From Promethearchaeota archaeon Loki_b32 (lineage in GTDB: Archaea > Asgardarchaeota > Lokiarchaeia > Sigyniarchaeales > SOKP01), in the NCBI GenBank assembly GCA_005223125.1, contig NJBH01000003.1, positions 62,001 through 126,000 on the forward strand: a stretch of 64,000 nucleotides of DNA. The letters are read 5' to 3'. Shown one piece after another: positions 3,688 to 60,517 of the stretch. The position numbers and the translations under genes were made by a program. Each line of letters opens with the position of its first letter. The first letter of the stretch is position 1. The notes under the pieces are model-generated. The model saw only the letters and a program-made list of their open reading frames with translations, was not told where the DNA came from and did no database searches.

Positions 3688-3891
3688 TTATTAATAATGT
3701 TTTTATTATTCAAATTCAAACATCTTTTTTTAAGCTCAAAAAATGTCGTAAAAAAAAAGCTTAAATATAATTTCTATTATAAAGTTTTTGTAAGAATTCG
3801 TTGTTTATTGCTATTGAATTCAATTATTTAACTTCCGAATTTTTACTCCAATTAATTTAACTATTTAAGATTAGAAAGAGGTGTAATATTT

Positions 3892-4560
3892 ATTTCTCAA
3901 GAGGATATGAAAGATCTAACTACAGATTTAGATGACAAAGTTGTAAGAGCCCTACAAAATAAGGTTGATTCATACGAAACAGAGATCAGTCAACTAAAAG
4001 ATATTCTAGAAAAAAAGGACGAAGAATTTGCAAATCTAGCAAAATCTAAAGATGATATGAGTTCCGAATTAGAGGAAACTCGAAGTAAGCTTTCAGACTT
4101 AGAAAGTAAAACGGGCGACCTTGACAAATTAAATAGTGAAGTATATGATCTAAAAAAAACAATTACTTTAGAAGAGAATGAATTAAATAAATTGAGGGCA
4201 GAAGTAGATGAATTCAAGCCTAGAGTAGCAGAATTAACTAAAAACAATGATGAATTAAAGAGGAATATTGCTGATAATGAATCTAAAGTTAAAGAATTAA
4301 CCGATGCTCTCGCAGAAAAAGAAAAAGCATTCGATGATCAAAAAAGCAGATTAGAAAAAGCCGAAACAGAATTATCAGCACTAAAACCAGCCGAACCATC
4401 TGAATATACAAGTGAAGAACGTTTAATTTGCCCAAAATGTGGCGCTAGAGGTAAAGATTTAAAAGTTGAAGAAGATAAATCTAAAATTTTAGGCTACGTA
4501 GGTCATTCACCAATGTATGGTAAAACTAATGTTTGTAAAAAGTGTGGAACAACTTTTTAG
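3892..4560 (+). CDS. Long coiled-coil protein with C-terminal zinc ribbon
   Basis: Residues about 10-160 are a continuous, highly charged coiled coil rich in E, K and L, followed by a zinc ribbon with CPKC.ARG and CKKC.TTF near the end. Similar coiled-coil plus zinc-ribbon proteins recur in Asgard genomes without known function. The first ATG is at 3907 with GAGG only 2 nt away, whereas a strong AAAGAGGTG (3875-3883) stands 8 nt before an in-frame ATT at 3892. I therefore prefer an ATT start, giving MSQEDMKDL; this is not certain. A homodimeric adaptor is the likely shape. Confidence 0.6.
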   Translation: MSQEDMKDLTTDLDDKVVRALQNKVDSYETEISQLKDILEKKDEEFANLAKSKDDMSSELEETRSKLSDLESKTGDLDKLNSEVYDLKKTITLEENELNKLRAEVDEFKPRVAELTKNNDELKRNIADNESKVKELTDALAEKEKAFDDQKSRLEKAETELSALKPAEPSEYTSEERLICPKCGARGKDLKVEEDKSKILGYVGHSPMYGKTNVCKKCGTTF

Positions 4561-4801
4561 GGAAGAAGAATAACCAAACCACAATTTTGGCAGAAATTTT
4601 TAATGATTTTTTTAATTTTTCTTTTTTCTTTTATATTTTTAAACTGAGTTAAAGAAATTAAACTCTTCATTTTGTTTAATACTGCTTTATACTACTAGAT
4701 AATCATCTCAGAAAAAGACTGAACAATTAATAAATTTAATTTAGGTTGCTTTTTTACTTCTAAAAAAGAAGATATATACAATCTTAATTTTAATTTTTAA
4801 A

Positions 4802-5836
4802 GTGAAATACAAATTGATTAAAACAAGAATAACTGAAAAATTTGGGATAAAATACCCGATTATTAGTGCTCCAATGGGACCATTTTATACGACAGAATTA
4901 GCTGTAGCTGTCTCTGAGGCAGGAGGCTTAGGTGTTGTAAGTCATGCAACATTAAGAGGGAAAAATTCAGTAAAGGATTTTAAAGAACAACTAGATTATG
5001 TTGTTGAACATACCGATAAACCATTTGGTATAAATGTACGCGTTGCTCGAATCCAGACAGACCATAGAGTTTTAATAAGAAAAATTCCACAGTGGCGAAA
5101 AGAAAACCCAAAGCTTAGAGAACAATTAATCTTTGGTTTAACTAGTGCTGGAGGGCCCCGTATCGTAGGAAAAATGTGGAAAGAAAAAGCTCCTGATATG
5201 TATCATTTCCATGTTGGTCCAGCAATGTGGCTAATAGATAAAATAGTGGAATCGGGGTGTGTTGGTATTGTCGCAACTGGAACTGAAGGCGGTGGTCATC
5301 AGAGTTATGAAGAGATAACTACATTAGTCTTAGTACAACAAGTTGCTCAAAAATACCCTGATAAATTACTAGTAGCGTGTGGAGGTTTTGCTAGTCCTGA
5401 AGGAGTTGCAGCTGGATTAGCTATGGGTGCTGATGCTGTTGCTATGGGAACACGATTTATAGCCTCTAATCAGAGCGAATTCCATCAAAATTATAAAGAT
5501 CTTATCGCTCCTGCTTCGGCTCGCGATACAATACTTACTACTGGAGGATTTGGACCTATTAGATTATTGAAGAATAAATACTGTCTTGAACACGGTCAAG
5601 TAGTGACTAAAGAAGAAAAAATATCACAAGAATTAGCTTACAATATGGAAGGATATTTGAAAGACCTTATTGCTTATGAAATAGTTTATACAAAAGGCGA
5701 CACGGTTAATGGAGCTGTCCCAGTCGGACAAACATGTGGATTGATCGATTCTATAATTGATGTTGATGATATTGTAAGTGGTTACTCAAAGAAAGCTGAA
5801 GAGTTATTAAAGAAACTATGCTCAAATATATCTTAA
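4802..5836 (+). CDS. Nitronate monooxygenase-like FMN enzyme
   Basis: A TIM-barrel flavoprotein of the 2-nitropropane dioxygenase/nitronate monooxygenase and FabK-like family. Visible marks are the N-terminal ITEKFGIKYPIISAPMG, the phosphate/FMN loop GTEGGGHQ, then VACGGFASPEGVAAGLAMGA and AVAMGTRFIASNQSE, in the usual order and spacing for ~340-residue members. It may oxidise nitronates or act as an enoyl reductase-like flavoenzyme; the exact substrate cannot be told. The start is GTG 4802. It is transcribed towards an oligo-T tract and converges with the acyl-CoA ligase gene downstream. Confidence 0.85.
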   Translation: MKYKLIKTRITEKFGIKYPIISAPMGPFYTTELAVAVSEAGGLGVVSHATLRGKNSVKDFKEQLDYVVEHTDKPFGINVRVARIQTDHRVLIRKIPQWRKENPKLREQLIFGLTSAGGPRIVGKMWKEKAPDMYHFHVGPAMWLIDKIVESGCVGIVATGTEGGGHQSYEEITTLVLVQQVAQKYPDKLLVACGGFASPEGVAAGLAMGADAVAMGTRFIASNQSEFHQNYKDLIAPASARDTILTTGGFGPIRLLKNKYCLEHGQVVTKEEKISQELAYNMEGYLKDLIAYEIVYTKGDTVNGAVPVGQTCGLIDSIIDVDDIVSGYSKKAEELLKKLCSNIS

Positions 5837-48547: not shown

Positions 48548-48594
48548 TTCGAAGAATATGTAAATATATACTGAATTGTGAGTGGTGACATTTA

Positions 48595-50166
48595 ATAAAT
48601 AAGATCAACAGAGTCATTCTTTGCGTCATCGACGACGTAAGAGCCGAGCACTTTTTTGATTTCATCAACAGGGGGTTACTACCTAATTTAAAAAAATTAA
48701 TGGAAAATGGAATTTATTCAGAAAATTGTATAACTGATTTTCCTCCTATTACTTACCCCACACAAGTATCGTTAATAACAGGAACGTATACTGGGGATAA
48801 TAGGAAGGAGTTATGTCATGGGGTTCCCCTCCTAAATTGGATGGGTCGAGATTGGGCACCACCAATGTTGAGAGAATATGCCGCTAAAGATTTACAAATT
48901 TACAAAATTAATAATGATATGGGAAATAATTGCCAGACAATTCTTGAAATGGTAGGAGACGGGAATACAGCGAGTATAGCACAGTTTATTAATAGAGGTT
49001 CAGACTACATTTTTCCAGAGAGAAAGACAAAACTCGCTATGTTCTATCTTCTCATGAAATACCTCCCGAATGTCAAAAGAAGAATGATTAGAGCTAATTC
49101 AGTTATTGCACAAAAATTAATAGAGGTTTTTGAAAAACCAAGAAAATTTTTTGATAATGCAGAGCCTCCTATTGCTTCTTTACTATGGTTTATCTCATCA
49201 GATTTATTAATGCATAAGTTTGGTTTTGATTCACATATATATAAATTGAATTTACTACACATTGATAAAGTAATAGGAGTTTTAATTGATAACTTAAAAA
49301 GAATGGGCTATTTAGATGATACCGCTATTGTAGTTAGTTCCGATCATGGAAATTATAAAGCCAATGAGTTTGGAAATTTAGGCAACTTTTTTAGGAAAAG
49401 GGGTTTAACTAATTATCATCCTCTAAGGAATTTAAGAGGAAATATGGATCTTGCTTATTACTCAGGAGGAGGTTTTTTTAATTTTAAAGGTAATAATGAT
49501 TTAGGATTTAAAAATAGCTGGCCTCATCCTACTCTTAAAGAACTTAAGAGTTATGGGGCAAAAAATGTAAATCTATTAGAAGACCTATTTTATATCAAGG
49601 GAAGTCGTTCAATGTATTATAGAGACGATAATAATACATTTAATAAAGGGATAATTCATCTTAAAAGAAAAAGTAAAGATTCGGAAAAAATAATTACAGG
49701 AAGGATTGAGTATGAGGGTATTGGAACAGAATATAAAACGCGATATACCACTGATGATCATGATGATATATTCAATTTTATAAATGATATTAAAGCAAGT
49801 CGATTGTTAGATAATAGATTTCATTCAACTCAAGAATGGTTAGAGGGAACATATCATCTAGATTACCCCATACATCCCGATTTAATACCTCGTCATTTCA
49901 AAAATCCTAGAGGCTCTGATATAATTTTAAGCAATGATGAGACGATAAAATTTGGCATCCATCATGGTAAACAGAAAAGTAAAAATCTTTATGATCATGA
50001 TTTAGGCTTGCGGAAATGTATGGCTGTTCCATTAATAATAGGAGGGTCTTTAGAGATTCCTTCTAAACATGTTCCTTGTTGTAAAATTACTGATATTGTT
50101 CCAACCTTATTAAAATTTCTAGGAAAAACACCACATAAGAGTGTAATTGGTAGAATTTTGCTATAA
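48595..50166 (+). CDS. Type I phosphodiesterase/alkaline-phosphatase superfamily hydrolase
   Basis: Metallo-hydrolase fold: the first metal site RVILCVIDDVRAEHFFDFI, YPTQVSLITGTYTG with the nucleophile Ser or Thr, AIVVSSDHGNYK for two metal ligands and IHHGKQKS plus TDIVPTLLKFLG near the end. Nucleotide pyrophosphatases and related enzymes belong here. The first ATG (48700) would delete the essential N-terminal Asp strand. The frame is open back to a TGA at 48586, and GGTGA at 48584 is 6 nt from ATA at 48595, the only near-cognate start. I use ATA. Confidence 0.75.
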   Translation: MNKINRVILCVIDDVRAEHFFDFINRGLLPNLKKLMENGIYSENCITDFPPITYPTQVSLITGTYTGDNRKELCHGVPLLNWMGRDWAPPMLREYAAKDLQIYKINNDMGNNCQTILEMVGDGNTASIAQFINRGSDYIFPERKTKLAMFYLLMKYLPNVKRRMIRANSVIAQKLIEVFEKPRKFFDNAEPPIASLLWFISSDLLMHKFGFDSHIYKLNLLHIDKVIGVLIDNLKRMGYLDDTAIVVSSDHGNYKANEFGNLGNFFRKRGLTNYHPLRNLRGNMDLAYYSGGGFFNFKGNNDLGFKNSWPHPTLKELKSYGAKNVNLLEDLFYIKGSRSMYYRDDNNTFNKGIIHLKRKSKDSEKIITGRIEYEGIGTEYKTRYTTDDHDDIFNFINDIKASRLLDNRFHSTQEWLEGTYHLDYPIHPDLIPRHFKNPRGSDIILSNDETIKFGIHHGKQKSKNLYDHDLGLRKCMAVPLIIGGSLEIPSKHVPCCKITDIVPTLLKFLGKTPHKSVIGRILL

Positions 50167-57898: not shown

Positions 57899-59197
57899 AT
57901 GGAAAAAAGTGCAGTAGAATTAAAAAAGACTTATATTGGAATATTTTCATTAAATTATTTTACTCAGGGAATTACTCAGTCGTTCTTCACTACAATTATT
58001 CCAATCTATTTATTACAATTAATGTCGGGTTTAGATACTGGTGAGGTTTCATCAGTGATGTCGATGGTTCTTCTTCCTTTTGGCGTGAAATTCATTTATG
58101 GGATACTTTCAGACAAATATGGTTTAAAAAAATGGGGAAGGAGAAAGCCATGGATAATCTTCCCCTCGATTATATCGGGTTTAATCTGGATACTGGTTCC
58201 TTTTTTATTAACACCCGATAATGCCATGTTAATGATAACACTTCTTGGAATTTTGATTGTCATTGGTGTGGCAATGGGAGATACAGCAATTGATGGACTT
58301 ATTCTCGATCTATGTCCTAAAGAAAGACTAGGACGTGTTCAAGGGATATGTTGGGGATTTAGATCTGTTGGGATAATTGCGGGGGGACCTTTAATTGTAA
58401 TGCTTTTTTTAGGTTTTAGAGGTGTGGTGGAATTTTCTTTTATAGTTCTTGGAATTGCGATGATTATATTTCCATTTTTAGTGTTAATCGTTAAAGAGGT
58501 TGAAAAGCCTTTAGAGATAAATGCACTCGAAAATCTTAAAATAATATTTGGTAAGCTTAAAAATTGGAAAGTATTTGTATTTTCATTATTTAACGCAGTT
58601 TGTGATGGTGTAATATTTGTAATTTTACCTCTTTTTGTACTTATTCAATGGGGTTTAGTTGGAGCTACGGGCTCTGAAATAGATCTTATTGGAAATGCTG
58701 ATTTATATGCTCCAAACGCTCTTGTTGCTTTCGTTGTTGGTTTAGGAGTTATTGCTGGAGCTTTAATTGGAGGAAGGATTGCAGATCTACAATCTCGAAA
58801 ACGTAGTGTCTATTTTTCTTTATTTATAACAACAGGTTCTTTTTTACTTTTTGTAATTCCCGTACCATGGTATATTTTAATGATATTTGCATTCTTTATA
58901 GGAGGCTCCGCGGGTTGGAGAAATTCAGCCTTTTCAGCAGTAATAGGGCAAGAATCACAACAATATCCTGAAATGGACAGTACGTATTATGCAACTTGCA
59001 ATTCATTTGTCAACCTAGGGGGTACTATAGGATTACAACTGACCAGTATTTTATTTATATGCTTCGCCGGACTCCCTGTATTTGGAATATATGCACTTAT
59101 CTTTTTAATAATGGCAATTCTAATAAATTTAGATTTCCTCCCCTTTTTCACATTAGATCCTAAAGAATACGAAATAAATAGAGAAATAAATGAATAA
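57899..59197 (+). CDS. MFS transporter
   Basis: 432 residues with 12 hydrophobic segments. The N-terminal half has the MFS motif A as GILSDKYGLKKWGRRKPWI and the second half GGRIADLQSRKR, its repeat. DTAIDGLILDLCPKERLGRV then GICWGFRSVG fits the GPH/AmpG-like branch. The substrate may be a sugar or peptide; no periplasmic-binding partner is near. ATG 57899 is preferred over the TTG at 57887. The next genes are an aminotransferase and a GH4 glycosidase, so sugar uptake is a possibility. Confidence 0.85.
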   Translation: MEKSAVELKKTYIGIFSLNYFTQGITQSFFTTIIPIYLLQLMSGLDTGEVSSVMSMVLLPFGVKFIYGILSDKYGLKKWGRRKPWIIFPSIISGLIWILVPFLLTPDNAMLMITLLGILIVIGVAMGDTAIDGLILDLCPKERLGRVQGICWGFRSVGIIAGGPLIVMLFLGFRGVVEFSFIVLGIAMIIFPFLVLIVKEVEKPLEINALENLKIIFGKLKNWKVFVFSLFNAVCDGVIFVILPLFVLIQWGLVGATGSEIDLIGNADLYAPNALVAFVVGLGVIAGALIGGRIADLQSRKRSVYFSLFITTGSFLLFVIPVPWYILMIFAFFIGGSAGWRNSAFSAVIGQESQQYPEMDSTYYATCNSFVNLGGTIGLQLTSILFICFAGLPVFGIYALIFLIMAILINLDFLPFFTLDPKEYEINREINE

Positions 59198-59335
59198 AAA
59201 CTCTTAATTTTTTTATTAATTTTATTTATTCTGTTATTAATGTAAATGGCTACACTTTTTCGAAAAATTTTTATCGTTTAATAATGATTGATTTCACATA
59301 GTCCTAATCCTTAATTTGAAATAAAGGTGTTTTAA

Positions 59336-60517
59336 ATTAAATTACAATATTCTGAGAGGGTTAAGAGTCTTCCAACATATATTTTTGTAGAGATAGAACA
59401 ATTATTATCAGAAAAAAGAAAGAAAGGTATTGATTTAATTCCACTAGGGATTGGAGATCCTGATTTACCTACTCCTGATGTAATCATTGACGAATTAATA
59501 AAGCAAGTTAAAATTCCTGAGAATCATAATTACCCTTCGAGTATGGGAGAAGATGATTTTAGAGAAGCAATTGCTAGATGGTATAAAGTTAGATTTAACA
59601 TGGATTTTGATCCCAATGAGGAGATTTCAAACGTAATTGGAGGAAAAGAAGGTGTAGCTAACATTGCAAGAGCATTTATTAATCCTGGAGATATAGTATT
59701 ATGTCCTAATCCCGGATATCCTGTTTATGAAAATGGAGCAACAAAATTGAGTGATGCAAAACCTTATTCAATGCCACTGTTGAAAGAAAACAATTTTTTG
59801 GCAGACTTAGATTCAATTGATAGAGAAATTCTTAAAAAAGCTAAACTAATGTATTTAAATTATCCAAATAACCCTACTGGTGCAATAGCACCGAAAGAAT
59901 TTTTAAAAAAAGCTGTTGATTATGCTGATGATTATAATTTTTACATCATTTATGATAATCCTTATTCAGAGTTTACATTTGATGATTATATAGCACCTTC
60001 GATATTGCAGATAGATCCAAACCATGTTGAGATTAATAGTGCATCTAAAATGTTCAATATGACTGGATTTCGGTGTGGCTGGACTGTTGGAAACAAAGAT
60101 ATTATAGAAGGGTTAAGAAAGATTAAGTCTCAAATTGATTCGGGGTGTCCTAAATTTATACAAAGAGCTGTAATCAAAGGACTAAATGAATACAAATCTG
60201 AAAAAAAGCCAGAAATAATTGAAAGAACGATTAAGACCTATCAACGGTGCAGAGATATTCTCATTAAAGGATTAAATGATATAGGTTGGACAACAGACAA
60301 ACCTCAAGCAACTTTTTATATATGGACTCAAATCCCTAAAAAATATAGAGATATTAGTTGTATGGATTTTGTAAAAAAATTAATTGAGATTGGAGTAGTT
60401 ATTACGCCTGGAATAGGATTTGGTCAGTATGGAGAGGGATTTGTAAGGTTTGCTTTAACACAACCAGAAGAACGAATTCTTGAAGCAATAGAAAGAATTA
60501 GTACCTTAATAAATTAA
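59336..60517 (+). CDS. LL-diaminopimelate aminotransferase-like enzyme
   Basis: PLP aminotransferase of fold type I. The N-terminus SERVKSLPTYIFVEIEQLLS then IPLGIGDPDLPTPD is complete; NYPSSMGEDDFREAIA, YPNNPTGA, IIYDNPYSEF and SASKMFNMTGFRCGW (PLP lysine in SASK) follow as in DapL. The frame is open upstream only to a TAA at 59333; AGGTG at 59325 lies 6 nt before the ATT at 59336, the first codon after that stop. The first ATG (59543) would remove the conserved N-terminal 69 residues. I therefore call an ATT start, giving 393 residues. Confidence 0.88.
   Translation: MKLQYSERVKSLPTYIFVEIEQLLSEKRKKGIDLIPLGIGDPDLPTPDVIIDELIKQVKIPENHNYPSSMGEDDFREAIARWYKVRFNMDFDPNEEISNVIGGKEGVANIARAFINPGDIVLCPNPGYPVYENGATKLSDAKPYSMPLLKENNFLADLDSIDREILKKAKLMYLNYPNNPTGAIAPKEFLKKAVDYADDYNFYIIYDNPYSEFTFDDYIAPSILQIDPNHVEINSASKMFNMTGFRCGWTVGNKDIIEGLRKIKSQIDSGCPKFIQRAVIKGLNEYKSEKKPEIIERTIKTYQRCRDILIKGLNDIGWTTDKPQATFYIWTQIPKKYRDISCMDFVKKLIEIGVVITPGIGFGQYGEGFVRFALTQPEERILEAIERISTLIN

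Follow-up and report, generated by a model that had tools for sequence, protein, structure and literature searches.

A DapL-like aminotransferase gene of a Lokiarchaeon probably starts with ATT, in a family with candidate near-cognate starts behind Shine-Dalgarno sequences

Results

The aminotransferase locus

The DNA analysed here (the window, 64,000 nucleotides) belongs to contig C24 of an archaeal MAG of 4.13 Mb, referred to below as G000. Downstream of an MFS transporter gene ending at 59197, the window carries a gene for a DapL-like aminotransferase with the start-site sequence ...AAATAAAGGTGTTTTAA ATT AAA TTA CAA TAT TCT GAG AGG... and the following features:

59325..59329, + strand: AGGTG Shine-Dalgarno (SD) sequence, separated from ATT by the 6 nt spacer TTTTAA
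59327..59329, + strand: GTG within the SD, in frame (GTG TTT TAA ATT); not a start here, since a stop follows one codon later
59333..59335, + strand: TAA, in-frame stop immediately 5′ of the proposed start codon
59336..59338, + strand: ATT, proposed start codon (from sequence, orthologue alignment and tree)
59336..60517, + strand: DapL-like aminotransferase, 393 aa from ATT; frame open to the stop at 60515-60517
59543..59545, + strand: ATG at codon 70, the first usual start after the TAA and the choice of a standard gene caller

Reading of this frame bears out the particulars of the original prediction, which had placed ATT 59336 as the first codon after the TAA with AGGTG 6 nt before it, and had found no ATG, GTG or TTG between TAA 59333 and the conserved N-terminus. 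The expected loss of about 69 residues under usual-start calling is also correct, a caller restricted to ATG, GTG and TTG yielding 324 aa as against 393 aa from ATT 59336. The prediction was silent on the in-frame GTG inside the SD, which is followed by the TAA. Leader structure was considered as a possible mask of the SD; the leader can form a weak A/U hairpin that leaves GGUG exposed in its loop. Coupling of the aminotransferase to its upstream neighbour was considered and rejected, the transporter gene ending 138 nt before the ATT.

The protein clearly belongs to the PLP-dependent aminotransferases of class I/II (PF00155, 215.7 bits against a gathering cut-off of 19.7). The invariant lysine is present in SASKMFNMTGFR, and S237, K238, T243, G244 and R246 are invariant alignment columns. 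Two DapL models match it over its full length (residues 3-391), but at scores just under their curated cut-offs (504.3 versus 593.25 bits for TIGR03540, and 503.5 versus 507 bits for NF006756). Of the earlier designation 'DapL-type', the family resemblance therefore stands, and we leave the precise function at that level.

The start-site codon across the Lokiarchaeia family

Orthologues were drawn from independently assembled genomes of one family and aligned at the N-terminus (n=53). Public relatives of the aminotransferase come from MAGs named Candidatus Lokiarchaeota or Lokiarchaeia, an example being L110 (G010), which is 83% identical. The codon at the start site is ATT in 29, ATA in 7, ATC in 4, CTG in 1 and ATG in 12. 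The comparison had been proposed to see whether all orthologues lack ATG, GTG and TTG at this point: 41 of the 53 have a codon other than ATG there and 12 have ATG. Upstream GGTG is kept in every one of the 41 non-ATG orthologues, and the exact string GGTGTTTTAA-ATT recurs in ten genes (L005, L006, L010, L015, L019, L126, L129 and L132-L134). Spacing varies in a few, with GGTG and seven bases followed by ATT (L021 and L121) or by ATC (L017), and with four bases missing and CTG at the start site in L020. In two of the nearest relatives (L002 and L003), GGTG and three bases are followed by TAA-ATG, so that ATG stands exactly at the ATT position with identical SD and spacing. On a tree built with the first residues left out, the ATG and non-ATG states change eight times, and at least three of these changes are forced by well-supported branches.

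Conservation across independent assemblies extends to the ATT, ATA or ATC (ATH) codon, the GGTG and the protein encoded after them, and the missing usual start is therefore due neither to chance nor to error. An error in place of ATG would need only one wrong base in a genome that is itself a MAG, but ATT, ATA or ATC occupies the equivalent codon in 40 of the 53 family genomes, and similar starts occur in several other genes. The sequencing error that the original prediction had named as its possible undoing is thus practically excluded, and we give this explanation next to no weight. Equally little credence attaches to a start at the internal ATG 59543 with the upstream part untranslated, although this ATG is what a standard gene caller picks. 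Every orthologue conserves the protein sequence encoded by codons 2-69, the substitutions per site in these codons (0.248, 0.124 and 0.505 at codon positions 1, 2 and 3) have the three-base periodicity of coding sequence, and the ATG of the relatives sits exactly at the ATT position.

The GTG within the SD requires closer consideration. A spacer of six bases puts it in frame, at −9, in 36 of the 41 non-ATG orthologues, and in 25 of these 36 no stop intervenes before the ATH codon. More generally, some usual start codon, mostly this GTG, is found in frame upstream in 26 of the 41, and these genes on their own are no proof of AUH use. Translation could accordingly be imagined to begin at GTG 59327, with readthrough of the TAA at codon 3. 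Against this, a stop lies between GTG and ATH in 11 of the 36, so that stops are not depleted; the GTG is out of frame, and hence no possible start, in five orthologues (L017, L020, L021, L121 and L138); two near relatives read GTG CTT/TTT TAA ATG; and there is no SD upstream of GTG 59327. We consider readthrough very unlikely. On account of the same five out-of-frame cases we rejected the idea that a two-codon upstream reading frame (GTG TTT TAA) followed by reinitiation is conserved, and selenocysteine UGA was discarded as the cause of the upstream stops, TAA and TAG being found there too. The codon alone cannot separate a conserved isoleucine from an AUH start, and it is the in-frame stops and the interchange with ATG that carry the argument. 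Taken together, the alignment supports the interpretation originally put forward, that the ATT probably serves as the start codon of the aminotransferase.

Association with the Shine-Dalgarno sequence

An anti-SD matching AGGTG is present as GGATCACCTCC in the 16S tail of a second genome, G009, and of an order-level relative; a 16S gene was sought in G000 itself and not found. Across seven gene families, an SD match of at least 4 nt in register precedes 103 of 103 ATH or ACG starts versus 24 of 45 ATG starts, a comparison that counts related sequences as independent and is partly built in, six of the seven families (the aminotransferase is the exception) having been chosen for an SD before an odd codon in G000 or G009. 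A phylogenetically independent comparison of SD and start codon comprised only three pairs on supported branches and was not significant. Within about 2 Mb of G000 and G009 stretches, SD-led ATH codons were enriched in coding frames that have no usual start near their onset (14/543, OR 4.9, p=2.7e-5), and control codons gave an OR of ~0.5. When all ORFs were scanned with usual starts allowed, the ATH enrichment was weak (OR 1.3, p=0.07) because most genes have usual starts.

As a side observation on the translation apparatus, ARAGORN reported one tRNA gene, for tRNA-Leu, in 51 G000 stretches (L143-L203, ~1 Mb); tRNA introns in this lineage may hide others from the program.

Other genes with candidate near-cognate starts

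Coding frames without usual starts were sought in 1.17 Mb of G000, with a further 0.8 Mb of G009 sampled, and four G000 candidates with SD-led ATT, ATA or ACG were compared in 39 relatives. At the start of an HdrC-like gene, eight genomes have AAAGGTGATGATAA-ACG-TCT-GAT or a slightly different version of it, and three more, at 92-95% protein identity, have ATG-TC(T/A)-GAT. In a gene of the FAH family, ATA, ATT, TTG or ATG occupies one aligned codon with GAAGGTGA upstream; the stop of an upstream paralogue lies 3 nt before the ATA, and the two genes may be coupled. Of the haloalkane dehalogenase genes, two have ATT or ATA at the start and eight have ATG, and in a small GTPase gene the codon after the GGTGTTAAA-type leader is ATA or ATC. 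The window itself holds a second example:

48584..48588, + strand: GGTGA, SD sequence
48595..50166, + strand: sulfatase/phosphatase-like gene with an apparent ATA start (48595-48597)

In aligned genomes this gene has ATA behind TGGTGA in seven and ATG in seven. The scan of G009 further yielded an IscU/NifU scaffold gene with GAGGTGTAAGAG-ATT. In all 30 family genomes examined (L330-L359) the codon at its start is ATH (ATT 21, ATA 8, ATC 1, ATG 0), an in-frame stop lies 15 nt or less upstream in 22 of the 30, and a conserved YS[ED]KV protein start directly follows the ATH codon.

Some further frames were noted in passing. A weak candidate lies at ~3892 of the window, where GAGGTG precedes an ATT and the coding frame lacks a usual start close to its onset. 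The gene on L154 (+ strand, 3840-5208) and an orthologue in G009 with 92% identity have no ATG, GTG or TTG for ~60 codons, with no clear SD and no shared near-cognate codon among their first codons; other gene pairs without usual starts are at L163 (12727) and L179 (14760). HdrA-like frames (e.g. GINISASIDC...) run directly after an upstream stop on the + strand of L178 (from ~16950) and L192 (from ~17010), perhaps reflecting UGA-selenocysteine in HdrA. The HdrC-like frames L256 and L265 (genomes G006 and G026) contain one internal TAG each, and the IscU frame L353 (G006) one TGA inside a longer frame; recoding, fusion or assembly faults could account for these.

The aIF1 gene

The start-codon fidelity factor aIF1 is encoded in G000 by the only SUI1/aIF1 gene that we found there:

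L376:1477-1797 (contig C48), minus strand: SUI1/aIF1 gene

Its start region reads TAA GAG AGT ATT AAA AAC GAC GAC ATT TGT CCT, giving (I)KNDDICPICSFPKELCIC, with no ATG, GTG or TTG before the conserved ICPxC motif. The protein aligns with the solved aIF1 4mo0 from the third residue of that chain, which confines the start to a few codons, and apart from the conserved isoleucine codon itself the sole near-cognate among them is ATT. The SD is weaker here (GTGAT, 8 nt). From the sequence of this one genome, G000, the aIF1 gene likely begins with ATT.

Discussion

Our results are best explained if ATT 59336 is a real start and one case of a lineage habit of SD-led near-cognate starts, a reading that the comparative evidence makes highly probable. 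AGGUG would pair with the 16S tail and so place the 30S subunit, and the initiator Met-tRNA (CAU) would then start on AUU through a third-position mismatch, presumably inserting methionine, to give the 393-aa protein. A good SD would compensate for the weak codon, with initiation probably slower than at AUG. By sampling, SD-led genes that start on the single-mismatch near-cognates AUU, AUA, AUC and ACG may make up roughly 1-3% of genes.

Such codons could be the product of neutral drift tolerated under a strong SD and have no regulatory role, and we regard this as evenly balanced. Repeated interchange of ATG and ATH between close species and the frequent absence of a strong SD from ATG orthologues both favour drift, but drift alone is hardly enough for IscU, where the codon is never ATG, or for the HdrC-like gene, which keeps ACG in its eight genomes. 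Some genes, IscU among them, may instead keep a weak codon for regulation. Two forces may act together: ATG and weak codons drifting into one another under a strong SD, and selection for a weak start. A more far-reaching proposal, which we put forward tentatively and think rather less probable than drift, is a stringency circuit in Lokiarchaeia, in which the sole aIF1, started by AUU, would limit its own synthesis and set the translation of a regulon of AUU, AUA, AUC and ACG genes (IscU, HdrC, the aminotransferase and small GTPases). Autoregulation of the infC kind presupposes a product that controls start-codon stringency; the aminotransferase is no initiation factor, and only the separate aIF1 gene would qualify. 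If true, the circuit would be an archaeal counterpart, in relatives of eukaryotes, of the autoregulation of infC/IF3 and eIF1.

Lokiarchaeia are Asgard archaea, the archaeal group closest to eukaryotes. Gene finders shorten or miss genes begun by ATT, ATA, ATC or ACG. If use of these codons is indeed family-wide, N-termini would be truncated or missing in annotated Lokiarchaeia proteomes, and the affected proteins would include small GTPases and Fe-S proteins relevant to arguments about eukaryote origins. Near-cognate initiation would also exist, in an SD-driven form, in archaeal relatives of eukaryotes, and archaeal control of start-codon stringency would become directly testable. Only AUG, GUG and UUG appear as start codons in a review of archaeal initiation, which also describes the SD as not prevalent in a Lokiarchaeon (PMC7531240). 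In the literature that we searched (open-licence papers), no report was found of near-cognate main starts (AUU, AUA or ACG) in Asgard archaea. Known already are the AUU start of infC and the association of weak GUG and UUG codons with a stronger SD.

These findings can be set beside several known systems. The window protein resembles LL-diaminopimelate aminotransferase DapL in its full-length match and differs from it in scoring under the curated cut-offs. Near-cognate initiation is well known in eukaryotes, where eIF1 is autoregulated by poor start context. The Lokiarchaeia starts are like the eukaryotic ones in their codon types (AUU, AUA, AUC and ACG), but appear to be SD-anchored main starts of ordinary genes, with no sign of scanning. 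The factors themselves, aIF1 and eIF1, are homologous and both act in start selection (PMC7531240). In prokaryotes at large, weak GUG and UUG starts are accompanied by an SD that is stronger or better conserved (Belinky, Rogozin and Koonin 2017; PMC5622118), and the same survey of 36 groups recorded replacement of AUG by AUU in 1 of 61,358 ancestral AUG starts. The combination of weak codon and strong SD is alike in our data, whereas the candidate AUH and ACG starts here fall in several genes of one archaeal family. A further parallel is E. coli infC, which encodes IF3, has an AUU start and is autoregulated (Butler et al. 1987; Brombach and Pon 1987, cited as references 43 and 44 in PMC9845219). 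It shares with the Lokiarchaeia genes an AUU behind an SD and the conservation of a non-canonical codon and, if the aIF1 gene really begins with AUU, a parallel logic in a factor that polices start codons. The Lokiarchaeia case differs in involving several metabolic and Fe-S genes, in the additional AUA, AUC and ACG codons, and in the exchange with ATG between species.
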